In this document: positions 9,825-16,444 of the stretch, piece by piece | How positions within the stretch are numbered: position 1 is the stretch's first letter | Layout: the number at the start of each line of letters is the position of its first letter | Position numbers and translations under genes: made by a program | Notes under the pieces: model-generated | Told to the model about the DNA's origin: nothing | What the model saw: only the letters and a program-made list of their open reading frames with translations | Databases searched by the model: none | Assembly: GCA_016125285.1 (NCBI GenBank) | Contig: WGMA01000083.1 | Coordinates: 1 to 53,155, forward strand | DNA from: Phycisphaera sp. | GTDB taxonomy: Bacteria > Planctomycetota > Phycisphaerae > Phycisphaerales > Zrk34 | Reading direction: 5' to 3' | DNA: 53,155 bases

Positions 9825-12800
9825 TCACTCCCCGCCCATCCCGATCACCGCGCCGCCCGTCGTGCACATGTACAGCCGGCCGTCCGCGACGATCATCCCG
9901 TCGAACGCCGGCATCTCCTTCAGCTCGTGCCGCCCGACGATCTCGCCCGTCTCCGCCGACAGCTCCCACAGCCGGCTGCCGAGCCGCCCCTCGAACGCAG
10001 CGTTGGGATCGCCCTCCTTCACCTCGTCCGGTGCGCCGCACACGATCAGCTTGTCGCCGCCGAGCACCATCGCGTTCACACGCACCGGGATCCAATGGTG
10101 CCAGATCGGAGGAGCGCCGCGCGAGAAGCCCATGCCCTTGTCCTTGCCCCAGGCACGCGGGTCCAGCGTCGGCTCGTTGTGGTTGTCGTCGGCGATGATC
10201 AGGTAACCCTTCGTGCCCGGCGTGTACGTCGGCGTCAGCGGGTAACGCGACGTGTACGCCTTCAGCGCGTACGTCTTCTTCGGCCCCACCACCACCAGCT
10301 GCCCGCTCTTCGGAGCCAGGATCGACATGTTGAACCCCATCCACGTCGCCGAGTAAGACCAGAACGTGCGGTTGAAGAACGACGTGTCCAGGAACCCGCT
10401 CGTCGTGAACATGTGCAGGCCCAGATCGCGCTCGCCCTCGCTGTCCTTCTCGTCGACCAGGATCCCCGCCAGCTTGTCGTAGTTGCTGTACGTGGTGTTA
10501 CGCCACTTGACCTTGAAGATGTCGTCGTTGACGTAGTCCTTGTTGTCGAGGTTCATCGAAGGACGCTTCGTGACCTCCTCCTTCGTCAGGTACTTCGCGG
10601 GCTGGAGCTTGAGGTCCGGCGAGAACTTGAACTGGTCGAGGAAGATGAAGCCGCCCTCCGCCACGAGCAGGTCCGACTGCGCCCCCTCGATGTTGTACGA
10701 CGCCATGAACGTGTTGCGCTTGATGTCCTCGCGCTCGTTCGACCCGGTGTACAGGTTCGTGCGGTGCTTGATCTCGCCGGTCTTCACGTCGATCGCCGTG
10801 AGGAACAGCCCGCCGTCCACGAAGCTCGACCGCCCCGCGATGCAGTACGCCAGCCCGTCGACGACCGGCGCGCTGCCGTGCACGCGCCACACCGACTCCA
10901 GCTGACCGTGATCCGCCATCCACCGCACCTGCGGCGCGAGCCGACGCCGCCACGCCAGCTGCCCGTCCGTCGCACGCACGCAATACGCGTACCCGTCGGC
11001 GCAACCAAACACCAGCAGCCCCCGCCAGATCGTCGGCGGTGAATCCACCTGCGCCCCGGCGGTGAACGTCCACACAGCCTTGCCCGTCGCGCCGTCCAGC
11101 GCGTGCAGCGTGTGATGCGCCTTGGCCACCACGTACACCCGCCCGTCCGCCGCGACCGGCGGCGTCACGTCCGTGCCCAGGTCCACCTTCCACCGACGCG
11201 TCAGCTCACCGGTCACTCCATCCGTCGTCCCGCCCGTCCGCCGCTCGTCATGCCGATATGCAGGCCACCCCTTCGTATCGCTTGCCTCTTCGCCGACATA
11301 TCCATACGCCGCGCCCTTCTCGATCGCACCCGGCTCGTCGGCCACCGGCGTGTGATCCGGCTGACCCGCCGGCGGTCCCGCGTACGCGTTGAAGCCCTTC
11401 TGCAGCGCCGCCGCGTAACAGAAGCAACCGTGCGGCGGCTGATACAAAAACCCGTTCGCCGGCATCACGCCGTACGTGCACGACCCGCGCAGCCAGTCGT
11501 TCTGGCTGCTCTGCTCCTGGCTGCTGAGCCCCACGAACTCCACGCCGCGGTACTGCGTGATCAGGAACTTCTCCGTCGCCTTCGCCCGGTAGCAACGCAG
11601 GTGGTGCCCCTCGCTCTGCACGTTCGTCGGATCGATCCGCGTGGTCGGCTTGCCGGTCTTCAGGTCGTAGCCCGCGATCAGGTTGCCCGACGACGCGTTG
11701 GCGAACACCTGCCCGTCCGCCACGAACATGTCCCCGCCGCGCATCGAGCTGCCCTTCGTGCCCGGCGCCGTCCACACCGTCTTGCCGTCCGCCAGCGACA
11801 CCGCCGTGATCCCCTTGCCCGTCGCGATCAGCAGCTTGCCGTCCGCCACGAGCATCATGCCCGAGTTGTAGTTGATGTTCTCCTTGCTATCGAACGTCCA
11901 CCGCCGCTTGCCGTCCGCCCGGTTCAGGCACACCACCTCCTTGCGGTTGTGATACACCACCGCGTCATCGCTCACGCTCGTCATCTGCGGCACGTACCGC
12001 GCATCCTCCGCCTGCCAGACGAGCTTCTCGGCCTTCAGGTCGTAACGCGTGAACACCACGCGCGCGTCCGGCCGACGCGGGTCGAACTCGCTGACCGCGA
12101 ACAGGTCGTCCCCGTCCACCAGGATCTCCTTCACGCCGTCCGTCTTCGGCACCGTCCCCAGCGTCTTGCCCGTCGCCGCGTCGAGGACCTCCACGCCCTT
12201 GCCGTAGTCGAACGTCACGAACAGCTTGTCGCCGCTCGCCACCAGCCGACGCGCCATGTCGCCGTTGAAGAACCGCAACGCGTGGTTGCCCCACACCTCG
12301 CTGCCCCACGTCGACATCGGACGCTCCCACAGCAACGCCCCGTTGAACGCGTCACGCGCCACCAGCGTCCACTTCTCCGGCAGTCGCTGGTCCTCCATCC
12401 CCGTCACGCCCTCGTCAAACACGTAGAACAGCCGGCCCCGCGCCGACACCATCGCCGGCATGCTGTTGTTCACCTCGTGACCGCGCGTCCACATCTCGCC
12501 GCCCGTCCACTGCAACCGACGCGGCGGGCCGATCGAATCGTCCTCCGACACCGCGTTGCCGCTCGCGTCGTGCAGGAAGTGCGTCCACTCGTCCATCCCC
12601 TTCGGCCAAGGCTTCACCGTCGACTCCCACCCGCCGTCCGCCCCCGCCGTCCACAGCACGCCCAGCGGCTCGAGCACACGCAGCATCTCGTCCTTCGACA
12701 CGCCCGAAGCGTCGTCCACCACCAGCACGTTGATCAGGTTGTCGCGGTACGGCAGCGTCGCCCCCTCTAGCACGTTCGCCGACACCGGCCCGTACTTCCC

Positions 12801-13061
12801 CGCCGTCGCGATCCCCCGCCGCGCCGCCGCGACGCGACCCGCGTCACGATCCAGCGCCTGCACCACGAACCGCCCGTCCGCGCTCAGCGCCACGCTCCGC
12901 GACCCGTCGCCGCAACCCAGCTGCACCAGCATGCCCGGCCGCGTCGCCGGATCGTCCAGCACCGCCTTCACCGGCGGCAGCCCCGCCCGCACCGCCACGC
13001 CGCTCAACAAAACTACCAACATGCAAACAACGATCCGGAACCGATCGGGCACGTGCGACAT
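9825..13061 (-). CDS. Exported PQQ-like beta-propeller protein with N-terminal methyltransferase-like domain
   Basis: 1078 residues starting at 13061 (GAGG upstream; the longer frame begins in non-coding DNA). A signal peptide (about 9-27) is followed by a Rossmann-type segment with a SAM-site motif LGCGDGSRSVALS (48-60) and LPYRDNLINVLVVDD. From about 185 to the end there are many PQQ/BamB-like propeller blades (LDGATGKAVWTFTAGA, AIDVKTGEIKHRTNL, WELSAETGEIVGRH). Propellers of this type bind quinone cofactors or scaffold proteins. A methyltransferase fold in an exported protein is odd because SAM is cytoplasmic, so the N-terminal domain may be a binding relic. The neighbouring genes converge from the left and diverge to the right. 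Confidence 0.88.
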   Translation of the reverse strand: MSHVPDRFRIVVCMLVVLLSGVAVRAGLPPVKAVLDDPATRPGMLVQLGCGDGSRSVALSADGRFVVQALDRDAGRVAAARRGIATAGKYGPVSANVLEGATLPYRDNLINVLVVDDASGVSKDEMLRVLEPLGVLWTAGADGGWESTVKPWPKGMDEWTHFLHDASGNAVSEDDSIGPPRRLQWTGGEMWTRGHEVNNSMPAMVSARGRLFYVFDEGVTGMEDQRLPEKWTLVARDAFNGALLWERPMSTWGSEVWGNHALRFFNGDMARRLVASGDKLFVTFDYGKGVEVLDAATGKTLGTVPKTDGVKEILVDGDDLFAVSEFDPRRPDARVVFTRYDLKAEKLVWQAEDARYVPQMTSVSDDAVVYHNRKEVVCLNRADGKRRWTFDSKENINYNSGMMLVADGKLLIATGKGITAVSLADGKTVWTAPGTKGSSMRGGDMFVADGQVFANASSGNLIAGYDLKTGKPTTRIDPTNVQSEGHHLRCYRAKATEKFLITQYRGVEFVGLSSQEQSSQNDWLRGSCTYGVMPANGFLYQPPHGCFCYAAALQKGFNAYAGPPAGQPDHTPVADEPGAIEKGAAYGYVGEEASDTKGWPAYRHDERRTGGTTDGVTGELTRRWKVDLGTDVTPPVAADGRVYVVAKAHHTLHALDGATGKAVWTFTAGAQVDSPPTIWRGLLVFGCADGYAYCVRATDGQLAWRRRLAPQVRWMADHGQLESVWRVHGSAPVVDGLAYCIAGRSSFVDGGLFLTAIDVKTGEIKHRTNLYTGSNEREDIKRNTFMASYNIEGAQSDLLVAEGGFIFLDQFKFSPDLKLQPAKYLTKEEVTKRPSMNLDNKDYVNDDIFKVKWRNTTYSNYDKLAGILVDEKDSEGERDLGLHMFTTSGFLDTSFFNRTFWSYSATWMGFNMSILAPKSGQLVVVGPKKTYALKAYTSRYPLTPTYTPGTKGYLIIADDNHNEPTLDPRAWGKDKGMGFSRGAPPIWHHWIPVRVNAMVLGGDKLIVCGAPDEVKEGDPNAAFEGRLGSRLWELSAETGEIVGRHELKEMPAFDGMIVADGRLYMCTTGGAVIGMGGE

Positions 13062-13258: not shown

Positions 13259-13267
13259 TGTTATAAT
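13259..13267 (+). promoter_or_regulatory. Extended -10 promoter for the DUF4132 module
   Basis: TGTTATAAT is a perfect extended -10 (TGnTATAAT) located 38 bases before the ATG at 13305. No -35 consensus is visible, which is acceptable for extended -10 promoters. Confidence 0.5.
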
Positions 13268-13304
13268 CGCGACACACATTCGACCACTCATCCGGGAGGC
13301 CCGC

Positions 13305-13703
13305 ATGTCCATCACGATGACGATCCGCGACGAGACCACCGCCGGGGACAAGACCGACGCGCTCACGCTCGATTTCCTCAACGAACGCATCACCGTCCGC
13401 GAGCTGATCCGCAGCCGCGTCTACCAGGAAGTTCAGGACTACAACACCAAACAGCCCGAACACTTCCGCGGCCTGATCCAACCCACCGACGCCGAGAAAA
13501 CCCTCAACGGCTACAAACTCCGCCAAGGCCGCCAGATCAGGTTCGATACGCAGTACCAAAAAGCCCTCGCCGCGTTCGAGTCCAACGGCTTCCTCATCCT
13601 CGTCGGTGACAAACAGGTCGACGACCTCGACGAAGAGATCGTCATCGGCCCGACGACCAACGAGGCGACGTTCCTCAAGCTCGTTCCCCTCGTCGGCGGC
13701 TGA
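13305..13703 (+). CDS. Small conserved-looking protein upstream of the DUF4132 gene
   Basis: 132 residues with a strong GGGAGG ribosome binding site six bases before the ATG at 13305. I do not recognise the domain. It is soluble, acidic and has no signal peptide: a beta-like start (SITMTIRDETTAG), a helix ITVRELIRSRVYQEVQDYN around 29-47, then a ALAAFESNGFLILVGDKQV segment (about 87-105) and VDDLDEEIVIGP. It lies 83 bases before the DUF4132 gene with no other gene between, under what looks like its own extended -10 promoter. I infer that the two form an operon and possibly a complex. Function is unknown. Confidence 0.8.
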   Translation: MSITMTIRDETTAGDKTDALTLDFLNERITVRELIRSRVYQEVQDYNTKQPEHFRGLIQPTDAEKTLNGYKLRQGRQIRFDTQYQKALAAFESNGFLILVGDKQVDDLDEEIVIGPTTNEATFLKLVPLVGG

Positions 13704-13724
13704 CCCCTCCCACGACCACTAAAG

Positions 13725-13746
13725 CCCCGGGGCGACTTCCCCCGGG
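13725..13746. repeat. GC-rich hairpin repeat
   Basis: CCCCGGGG, a short loop, then CCCCCGGG, preceded by TAAAG. It sits between the small gene and the DUF4132 gene. Same family as the hairpins at 9763 and 52647. Confidence 0.6.
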
Positions 13747-13786
13747 CGCTCTCTTCAAATCCGTCCGGCAGTTGGGAGCTTTAACG

Positions 13787-16444
13787 ATGGCCCTGGAACA
13801 ACTCGACGCGTTTCTTGGCGGGCGCCGCATGACCGAACTCGGACCAACGACCACCATCGGCCCGGACAACTTCCCGCTGCTCGAATCCTCCGAATTGGCC
13901 GACACGCATGCGCTGCTGAGCGAGGCCCTGATGGAGTTCAACGCCGACTATAACCGCGAGCGACGTTTGTCGGATCTGAAGGCCGGCGTGGCGCTGCTGT
14001 CTGGTGACGACGACGCAAGATCGGCTGCCTTTCTGGCGATCCTTGAACGCGAATTCGCTTACACGGCCAAGCTTGGCGAGCGGGCCCCATATCCTCAGAC
14101 CCGGTGGTTCGGGTACGGCACCGCACAGCGAGCGTTGATCGAACTGATGGACGAAGGGGTGGTTCTTGATCGAGTGCTTCTGCCCGCGCTGCGTTACCTC
14201 GCCGCGCACTTCAACTTCTACTACATGACCGCCATCACCGCCCGATTGATCGCCGAAGTGCGTCAACGATACGGCCCGTCGATGCCTGAAGAGATTCGCG
14301 ATGTGCTGACGCTGATCCGTGGTCAACTCACGGGCGGTGGCGGGCTCGGCGGCGACCGAGTCGCGTTGAGCAGCCTCGATGAACTGCTCGGCGACGGTCT
14401 GTGGAAGCTGATCGATCCCTGCGAAGTCTGGACACACCACGCCACCGAGCAGATCAACACAATGACTGACGAGCAACGCGACGCATGGGTCGCGATACTG
14501 ACCCACTGCCGCACCGCCAAGAGCGCTAAGCCCGCCGCAAAGTGGACGAACGCCGCATTGCCCCTCATCGAGCGCATCGGCGCCGCGACGTTTCAGTCAC
14601 ACCTGCTGGAATGGTTCAGTCTCGTCGACAAGGCGCGACGCCACCGGACCATCGGCTCCGCATGGGACAACACCGACGACACGCAGCGCATGCACGACAC
14701 CAATGCCGACGTGCTGCGCGGCCTAATCTGGGCCTGTCTGCAAATCCCTTCGAGAGACATCTGCCGCTCGATCACAACAGTCGCGCTTTCCGCCTATCGC
14801 AAGGCACGAGGCATCGGCCCCCGCGCCGTCAAAGTCGGCAACGCCTGCGTCTGGGCGCTCGGGGAGATGCCCGGCCTCGAAGGCGTCGCGCAGCTGGCGC
14901 TCGTCAACGTGCGCGTGAAGTACAAGCCCGCGCAGAAAGGCATCGAGAAGGCGCTGGAGAAGACCGCAGAGCGGCTCGGCATCGGGCCCGACGAGGTCGA
15001 GGAGATGTGCGTGCCCGAGTACGGGATGACCGAAGTCGGCCTCCGCCGCGAGCAGCTCGGCGACTTCACGGCGGAGGTCGCGGTGACGGCGACGAACAAG
15101 GCGGAGCTGCGGTGGTTCAAGCCGGATGGCAAGCCGCAGAAGTCCATGCCCAAGGCGGTGAAGGACGAGCACGGCGAAGAGGTGAAGGAGCTGAAGCAGG
15201 CGGCGAAGGACATCGAAAAGATGCTGCCTGCGCAGCGTGATCGCATCGATCGCATGTTTCTCCAGCCGCGCTCGTGGCCGATGCCGAGGTGGCGCGAGCG
15301 GTACCTCGATCACCCGCTCGTCGGCGTGATCGCGCGGAAGCTGATCTGGCGCTTCACACGCGGCGGGCAGACCGCCGACGCGATCTGGCGCGACGGTCGT
15401 TTCGTCACCGTCGACGACCAGCCCGTCGACTGGCTCGACGGGGCGGGCGACGACGTGACGGTGGCGCTGTGGCACCCGATCGAGCACGATCCCGATGTCA
15501 TCACCGCGTGGCGCGACTGGCTCGACCGGCACGAGGTGCGCCAGCCGATCAAGCAGGCGTACCGCGAGGTGTACCTGCTGACCGACGCCGAGCGGAACAC
15601 CGGCGTGTACTCCAACCGCTACGCGGCGCACGTCATCAAGCAGCACCAGTTCAACGCGCTGTGCGCGATCCGCGGCTGGCGCAACACGCTGCGGCTCATG
15701 GTCGATGACAGTTACCCGCCGACGTCCCGCGCGCTGCCCGAGTGGAACCTCCGGGCCGAGTTCTGGGTCGAGGGCGCCGGTGACGAGTACGGCCGCGACA
15801 CCAACGAGACCGGCACGTACCTCTACCTCGCCACCGACCAGGTGCGCTTCTACCGCATCGACGCCGCCGAGCGCTACGCCCACGCCAGCGGAGGCCAGTA
15901 CACCACCAACGCCGAGGGGCCGGGAACGGACAACGTCAACGAACCCCTGCCGCTGACCGACATCCCGCCGCTCGTGTTCTCTGAGGTCATGCGCGACGTC
16001 GACCTGTTCGTCGGCGTGTGCAGCGTCGGCAACGACCCGACGTGGAACGACGGCGGGCCCGAGGGACGCTACCACGACTACTGGCAGAACTTCAGCTTCG
16101 GCGAGTTGGCCGAGACGGCGCAGACGCGCAAGGCGGTGCTCGAGCGGATCGTGCCGCGGCTGAAGATCGCCGGGCGGTGCTCGTTCAGCGATCGCTTCCT
16201 CGTGGTCAAGGGCGACGTCCGCACGTACAAGATCCACCTCGGCTCGGGCAACATCCTCATGGAGCCCAACGATCAGTACCTGTGCATCGTGCCCAACCAG
16301 ACCGTGGCCGACCGTTCGACGGAAAGCGTCTTCCTCCCTTTCGAGGGCGACCGGACCCTCGCGGTGATCCTCAGCAAGGCCCTGCTGCTCGCCGACGACA
16401 AGAAGATCAAGGACAAGACGATCCTCAGCCAGATCGGGCGGTGA
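13787..16444 (+). CDS. DUF4132 domain protein with DUF7737-like C-terminus
   Basis: 885 residues starting at the ATG 13787 (GGGAG eight bases upstream; an in-frame TTG at 13772 is less likely). Residues about 1-440 are helical and repeat-like (LRYLAAHFNFYYMTAITARL; ALGEMPGLEGVAQLALVNV), suggesting HEAT-like helices. About 450-650 matches DUF4132 (LIWRFTRGGQTADAIWRDGR, LWHPIEHDPDVITAWRDWL, HVIKQHQFNALCAIRGW). About 735-885 is the conserved end (DVDLFVGVCSVGNDPTW, YWQNFSFGELAETAQTRKAV, DVRTYKIHLGSGNILMEPN). These families are widespread but without a proven biochemical role. No signal peptide or membrane helix is seen, so it is cytoplasmic. Codon use appears less GC-biased in the first third than in the rest. 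Confidence 0.85.
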   Translation: MALEQLDAFLGGRRMTELGPTTTIGPDNFPLLESSELADTHALLSEALMEFNADYNRERRLSDLKAGVALLSGDDDARSAAFLAILEREFAYTAKLGERAPYPQTRWFGYGTAQRALIELMDEGVVLDRVLLPALRYLAAHFNFYYMTAITARLIAEVRQRYGPSMPEEIRDVLTLIRGQLTGGGGLGGDRVALSSLDELLGDGLWKLIDPCEVWTHHATEQINTMTDEQRDAWVAILTHCRTAKSAKPAAKWTNAALPLIERIGAATFQSHLLEWFSLVDKARRHRTIGSAWDNTDDTQRMHDTNADVLRGLIWACLQIPSRDICRSITTVALSAYRKARGIGPRAVKVGNACVWALGEMPGLEGVAQLALVNVRVKYKPAQKGIEKALEKTAERLGIGPDEVEEMCVPEYGMTEVGLRREQLGDFTAEVAVTATNKAELRWFKPDGKPQKSMPKAVKDEHGEEVKELKQAAKDIEKMLPAQRDRIDRMFLQPRSWPMPRWRERYLDHPLVGVIARKLIWRFTRGGQTADAIWRDGRFVTVDDQPVDWLDGAGDDVTVALWHPIEHDPDVITAWRDWLDRHEVRQPIKQAYREVYLLTDAERNTGVYSNRYAAHVIKQHQFNALCAIRGWRNTLRLMVDDSYPPTSRALPEWNLRAEFWVEGAGDEYGRDTNETGTYLYLATDQVRFYRIDAAERYAHASGGQYTTNAEGPGTDNVNEPLPLTDIPPLVFSEVMRDVDLFVGVCSVGNDPTWNDGGPEGRYHDYWQNFSFGELAETAQTRKAVLERIVPRLKIAGRCSFSDRFLVVKGDVRTYKIHLGSGNILMEPNDQYLCIVPNQTVADRSTESVFLPFEGDRTLAVILSKALLLADDKKIKDKTILSQIGR

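Follow-up and report, generated by a model that had tools for sequence, protein, structure and literature searches.

A putative ubiquitin-like protein with a GG tail is encoded next to DUF4132-DUF7737 proteins across bacterial phyla

Bacterial ubiquitin-like proteins known so far are sulfur carriers, modifiers encoded in operons with E1, E2 and JAB genes, or odd subunits such as TmoB. The Bil and Bub operons are ubiquitination-like operons of the second kind and carry E1, E2 and JAB genes. The families covered in the sections consulted of a survey of prokaryotic ubiquitin-like proteins (PMC1779556) differ from the one reported here; among its subjects are bacterial E1-E2-JAB operons as well as TmoB and YukD, two beta-grasp proteins encoded in operons without conjugation enzymes. 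DUF4132 is named in three of 5.39 million open-access papers, and in none of them with a partner of the present kind; one DUF4132 gene of Deinococcus belongs to the DNA-damage regulon (PMC8533742). Our search of the open-access literature (subscription journals and preprints being outside its scope) found no description of a ubiquitin-like protein paired with a DUF4132-DUF7737 protein. The pair is thus apparently an undescribed two-part bacterial system without the usual ubiquitin-activating enzyme next door, in line with the initial annotation of the locus, which had proposed a candidate undescribed system.

The window analysed is a stretch of 53,155 nucleotides from Phycisphaera sp. (contig WGMA01000083.1), in which the pair and its features occupy the following positions.

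13259..13267, + strand: extended -10 promoter-like element TGTTATAAT upstream of the small gene, plausible from direct sequence reading
13294..13299, + strand: ribosome-binding site GGGAGG, 5 nt 5' of the small-gene ATG (direct sequence reading)
13305..13703, + strand: small gene, encoding a 132-aa putative ubiquitin-like (beta-grasp) protein with the C-terminus -KLVPLVGG (open reading frame, AlphaFold2 model, PDB matches, family conservation)
13680..13700, + strand: flexible, almost invariant C-terminal tail LVPLVGG, residues 126-132 (column entropy, pLDDT)
13774..13778, + strand: ribosome-binding site GGGAG, 8 nt 5' of the DUF4132-gene ATG (direct sequence reading)
13787..16444, + strand: large gene, encoding an 885-aa DUF4132-DUF7737 protein (open reading frame, Pfam; model pLDDT 85.5)
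13787..15001, + strand: predicted N-terminal alpha-solenoid of HEAT/ARM type, residues 1-405 (repeated helices in the model; CAND1, PP2A-A and importin matches)
15128..15679, + strand: DUF4132 domain, residues 448-631 (Pfam)
15980..16006, + strand: codons of SEVMRDVDL, residues 732-740, signature SExxRDxDL (alignment; kept in paired and lost in unpaired DUF4132 proteins)
16037..16126, + strand: conserved loop, residues 751-780, candidate docking surface (pLDDT 50-56, column conservation)
16118..16435, + strand: DUF7737 domain, residues 778-883 (Pfam)

The two genes lie on the same strand, 83 bp apart, and each is present in a single copy in the genome. The initial annotation had read here a 132-residue protein followed by an 885-residue protein of DUF4132/DUF7737 type, and both reading frames were recovered; DUF4132 (PF13569; E 1.8e-51, 175 bits) and DUF7737 (PF24879; E 1.6e-42, 144 bits) each score far above the Pfam cut-off of 27 bits. 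The ribosome-binding site that it had assigned to the small gene is indeed found five bases before the ATG. It had also named an extended -10 promoter; the element TGTTATAAT is present, but a consensus scan upstream of the small gene found no paired -35/-10 promoter (0 against 0.4 expected), so that the promoter can be called plausible. A hairpin in the 83-bp gap was no more stable than in shuffled sequences. No Pfam family above cut-off matched the small protein, neither protein was matched in NCBIfam or PADLOC, and PDB sequence searches with alignments of both proteins returned no relative.

Structural modelling gave clues regarding the nature of the small protein. The AlphaFold2 model (52 sequences, pLDDT 86.9) has the beta-grasp order strand-strand-helix-(insert)-strands, with strands predicted at residues 3-11 and 16-24, a helix at 31-49, and strands at 96-100, 111-113 and 120-125. 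Foldseek ranked ubiquitin and NEDD8, each in complex with its E1 enzyme, first and MoaD shortly after them, and realignment gave Z scores of 6.6-7.9 to ubiquitin, MoaD, SAMP1 and a bacterial multi-ubiquitin protein, with alignments running to residues 125-130. A Z score below 8 is weak alone, yet the match lists consist almost wholly of beta-grasp proteins. Comparison with ThiS/MoaD by hhalign returned a probability of 0.11%, no better than shuffled columns, for a query of low diversity (Neff 2.5). Since this profile-profile comparison detected no sequence homology, the proposed relationship to ubiquitin rests on the predicted fold and on the tail.

Within the tail, all 52 sequences share L129, G131 and G132, and almost all share L126 and V130; column entropy at these five positions is near 0, and the same segment has the lowest pLDDT of the model. 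A tail that is invariant though predicted to be disordered suggests that something recognises it. The GG stands at the stop codon in all 10 small proteins found by the class-wide search described below, a set without bias for the tail pattern. In a divergent branch, whose partners are about 1630 aa long, the tails end in GG, GA or SG, indicating that the terminal glycine is not always needed. Judged from its predicted fold and its floppy GG tail at the stop codon, the small protein resembles a mature ubiquitin-like modifier. These are the features that it has in common with ubiquitin, NEDD8 and SAMP1, from which it differs by its length of 132 aa, an insert between the helix and strand 3, and the lack of detectable sequence homology and of a linked E1.

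Conservation of the pair was assessed at two scales. Whole-protein searching of the same class (198 genomes) found the small protein in 10 of them, and a DUF4132 gene directly adjoined it in all 10; seven more genomes of the class carry DUF4132. The small protein is 48-64% identical in the nine genomes other than that of the window and always stands next to DUF4132, so its conservation is more than chance. A scan of all GTDB species then covered a wider range. It used two peptide patterns, one of them in the C-terminal tail, and is therefore biased for the tail; 454 relatives of the small protein were returned, of which 80 loci were analysed. A DUF4132 protein was encoded within the locus in 74 of these 80, mostly on the same strand, and where its gene lay downstream the median gap was 2 bp (at most 50 bp in 59 of 67 gaps). 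The two-gene pairing seen by the initial annotation in a single sequence is accordingly kept in other genomes. Among the six loci without DUF4132, three (L066, L083 and L113) are cut off by the contig end on the side in question; a DUF7737 gene lies elsewhere in the genome of L113 and in each of those of the orphan ubiquitin-like genes L060, L085 and L125. One genome (G252), in which no DUF4132 was found, has a distant ubiquitin-like gene, and this counts against the mechanism favoured below. Hosts of the GTDB relatives comprise planctomycetes, verrucomicrobia, cyanobacteria, Streptomyces, Micromonospora, Rubrobacter, Armatimonadota, Omnitrophota and Calditrichota, and records of Novosphingobium and Nonomuraea with the small protein were found in a plasmid collection. 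The pair spans at least seven bacterial phyla (Planctomycetota, Cyanobacteria, Actinomycetota, Verrucomicrobiota, Armatimonadota, Calditrichota and Pseudomonadota), and the association persists despite reversed order, two partners or three ubiquitin-like copies in some loci. Pairwise distances among the small proteins track those among their partners (r 0.83, with a maximum of 0.21 over 1000 permutations), shared descent contributing to this value; the correlation is limited as evidence, because co-inheritance alone yields correlated distances.

The organization of the locus is variable. In five loci of a planctomycete group (L080, L107, L108, L122 and L131), the DUF4132 gene comes first and is directly followed by the ubiquitin-like gene. 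A Verrucomicrobiia MAG carries three serial ubiquitin-like genes upstream of one DUF4132-DUF7737 gene (L095:6483-12082), with small genes resembling antitoxin/toxin pairs between the three. Elsewhere, one ubiquitin-like gene precedes two tandem DUF4132-DUF7737 genes (L106:8001-13580), and a second DUF4132-DUF7737 gene is found at the pair's locus either on the opposite strand (L102:5357-10840) or in a short version of 476 aa (L088:668-5439). At L153/L246:1834-2424, a distant ubiquitin-like gene product ends in AGG, and no DUF4132 gene was found in the locus or genome.

We searched the surroundings of the pair for further components. Clustering of all neighbouring reading frames revealed no third conserved gene beyond local Streptomyces synteny, and the 25 commonest families in a Pfam scan of 104 neighbours include no E1, E2, JAB, AAA or VWA family. 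The module is composed of two genes. It shares with the E1-E2-JAB operons the presence of a ubiquitin-like gene in a bacterial operon, as these are described in PMC1779556, and differs from them in that E1, E2 and JAB do not recur around it.

The initial annotation had associated the small gene with DUF4132. The association is strong, but the true partner is narrower than this family and consists of the DUF4132 proteins that also contain DUF7737. Across the phylum (392 genomes), 19 of 23 genomes with both domains carry the small protein, as against none of 14 with DUF4132 only and one of 355 without DUF4132 (Fisher 5e-7). Of the four DUF7737 genomes lacking it, one has a partner gene that starts 70 bp from the contig end (L241) and another has a sub-threshold match; the other two are without such explanation. 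Similarly, in an independent collection of 72,556 plasmid records, the small protein occurs in two and DUF7737 in the same two, while 29 further records with DUF4132 have neither. Alignment showed that unpaired DUF4132 proteins (YehI of E. coli and three from the class) end before DUF7737 and are devoid of the SExxRDxDL signature, whereas paired ones have both. YehI, also known as MolR, thus has the DUF4132 core in common with the large protein, but its gene has no ubiquitin-like neighbour and adjoins WGR, MoxR, VWA and SWIM genes. Both the ubiquitin-like fold with its GG tail and the DUF7737 link had been missed in the initial annotation.

The Deinococcus operon DRA0165-DRA0166, a DNA-damage-induced DUF4132 operon (PMC8533742), was considered as a studied example of the pair and rejected. 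DRA0165 is a short peptide restricted to Deinococcus (PMC9650054), and Deinococcus plasmid records with DUF4132 contain neither DUF7737 nor the small protein. By this plasmid evidence, which comes from other Deinococcus species, the DNA-damage DUF4132 gene probably belongs to a branch without DUF7737.

The model of the large protein agrees with the earlier description of a HEAT-like protein, its N-terminal half being predicted to form a HEAT/ARM-type alpha-solenoid. Over residues 1-405, CAND1, PP2A-A and importins were matched at Z scores of about 8-10, a range below the tool's safe level for helical repeats, and solenoid matches filled the structure match list of the whole model. The more conserved part of the partner is the C-terminal half, with the lowest column entropy at residues 721-750 and 781-830. 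In the loop at 751-780, W753, D755, Y765, W766, F771, G772 and L774 are each present in at least 96% of 50 partner sequences. This loop is conserved yet has a pLDDT of 50-56, as expected for a surface that orders on binding, which suggests that the GG tail docks there. A catalytic role of the cysteine C833, which close relatives all share, was considered and dropped, since some distant partners have E, V or P at this position.

In the mechanism that we favour, and to which we give slightly better than even chances, the pair would be a dedicated two-component system. The small gene would yield a ubiquitin-fold protein produced in its mature form, its -PLVGG tail free and flexible. Its cytoplasmic partner would bind a target or scaffold through the N-terminal HEAT/ARM solenoid and receive the GG tail in its C-terminal alpha/beta part (DUF4132 and DUF7737), at DUF7737, the SExxRDxDL motif and the conserved loop. 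The ubiquitin-like protein would then act as a detachable subunit that switches or tags whatever the solenoid holds. Complex formation between the two proteins, already suggested from their pairing, is inferred, and the same applies to docking of the tail, to a covalent reaction of any kind and to the process that the system serves; with a borrowed E1, the tail could be used covalently. The small protein represents a widespread family that looks like a finished modifier and has one fixed partner of no known function, and it could provide an initial entry point to the function of DUF7737 and of one branch of DUF4132.

A doubtful but still credible alternative is that the beta-grasp protein is a structural subunit like TmoB, stabilising or assembling the DUF4132-DUF7737 protein, with the tail serving in packing only and no switching or tagging. 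TmoB and YukD show beta-grasp proteins serving without conjugation (PMC1779556), and the tail end in the distant branch is not strictly GG. The partners of TmoB and YukD are monooxygenase or ESX secretion proteins, and their tails have no conserved GG. A floppy tail with near-zero entropy up to the last residue exceeds what ordinary packing would require in the free protein, and three copies of the small gene per partner, as in L095, would be odd for a fixed 1:1 subunit.

Conjugation appears unlikely. A housekeeping E1 of ThiF/MoeB type, encoded at another locus, would activate the GG tail for attachment to substrates that the solenoid recruits, a task for which alpha-solenoids are suited, and the DUF4132-DUF7737 protein would be a ligase or substrate adaptor. 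The mature GG end and predicted beta-grasp fold are compatible with this, and all 25 genomes tested encode at least one ThiF-type E1 protein, as do most bacteria. Nevertheless, a ThiF/E1 gene was near the pair in 0 of the 25, E1, E2 and JAB are absent from the recurrent families of the 104 neighbours, some tails end in GA, and there is no cysteine position common to every partner, an argument against thioester transfer by the large protein. It is similarly improbable that a GG-tailed modifier has the solenoid protein itself as its acceptor or ligase in a bacterial tagging or sulfur-transfer system without dedicated E1, E2 or protease, a logic for which no parallel is known among other ubiquitin-like systems.

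A role as sulfur carrier, in which the tail would become a thiocarboxylate as in MoaD/ThiS and the DUF4132-DUF7737 protein would play the part of acceptor enzyme that MoaE has for MoaD, seems distinctly improbable. Human MoaD (5mpo_B, Z 7.9) is among the top structural matches, its fold and GG end being alike, the tails look similar (IIPPVSGG, IVTLVGGG), and a DUF4132 relative owes its name molR to molybdate use in E. coli, according to a reference cited in PMC8533742. Unlike MoaD/ThiS, the pair is not accompanied by ThiF (25 genomes) or by cofactor or sulfur genes (recurrent families of the 104 neighbours), and the profile comparison was negative. In addition, the tail is GA in some members, moeA/moeB of Deinococcus do not respond together with the DUF4132 gene (PMC8533742), and the window genome already has its own ThiS/MoaD-type genes. 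Five such matches were found in this genome, two of them near a ThiF gene on contig C23 (G000:C23:85882-90570).

An anti-phage defence module, to which the patchy distribution would be suited (small protein in 20 of 392 genomes of the phylum), is very improbable given the lack of a PADLOC match, of the small protein in phage records and of recurrent defence, transposase or integrase neighbours, together with a conserved housekeeping neighbourhood within Streptomyces.

In the window, the pair is flanked by a divergent beta-propeller (PQQ-type) gene and by an ABC-F type ATPase gene, both identified with Pfam. The former (9825-13061, - strand) encodes a large PQQ_2 protein, the N-terminal part of which is weakly methyltransferase-like (E 0.14).
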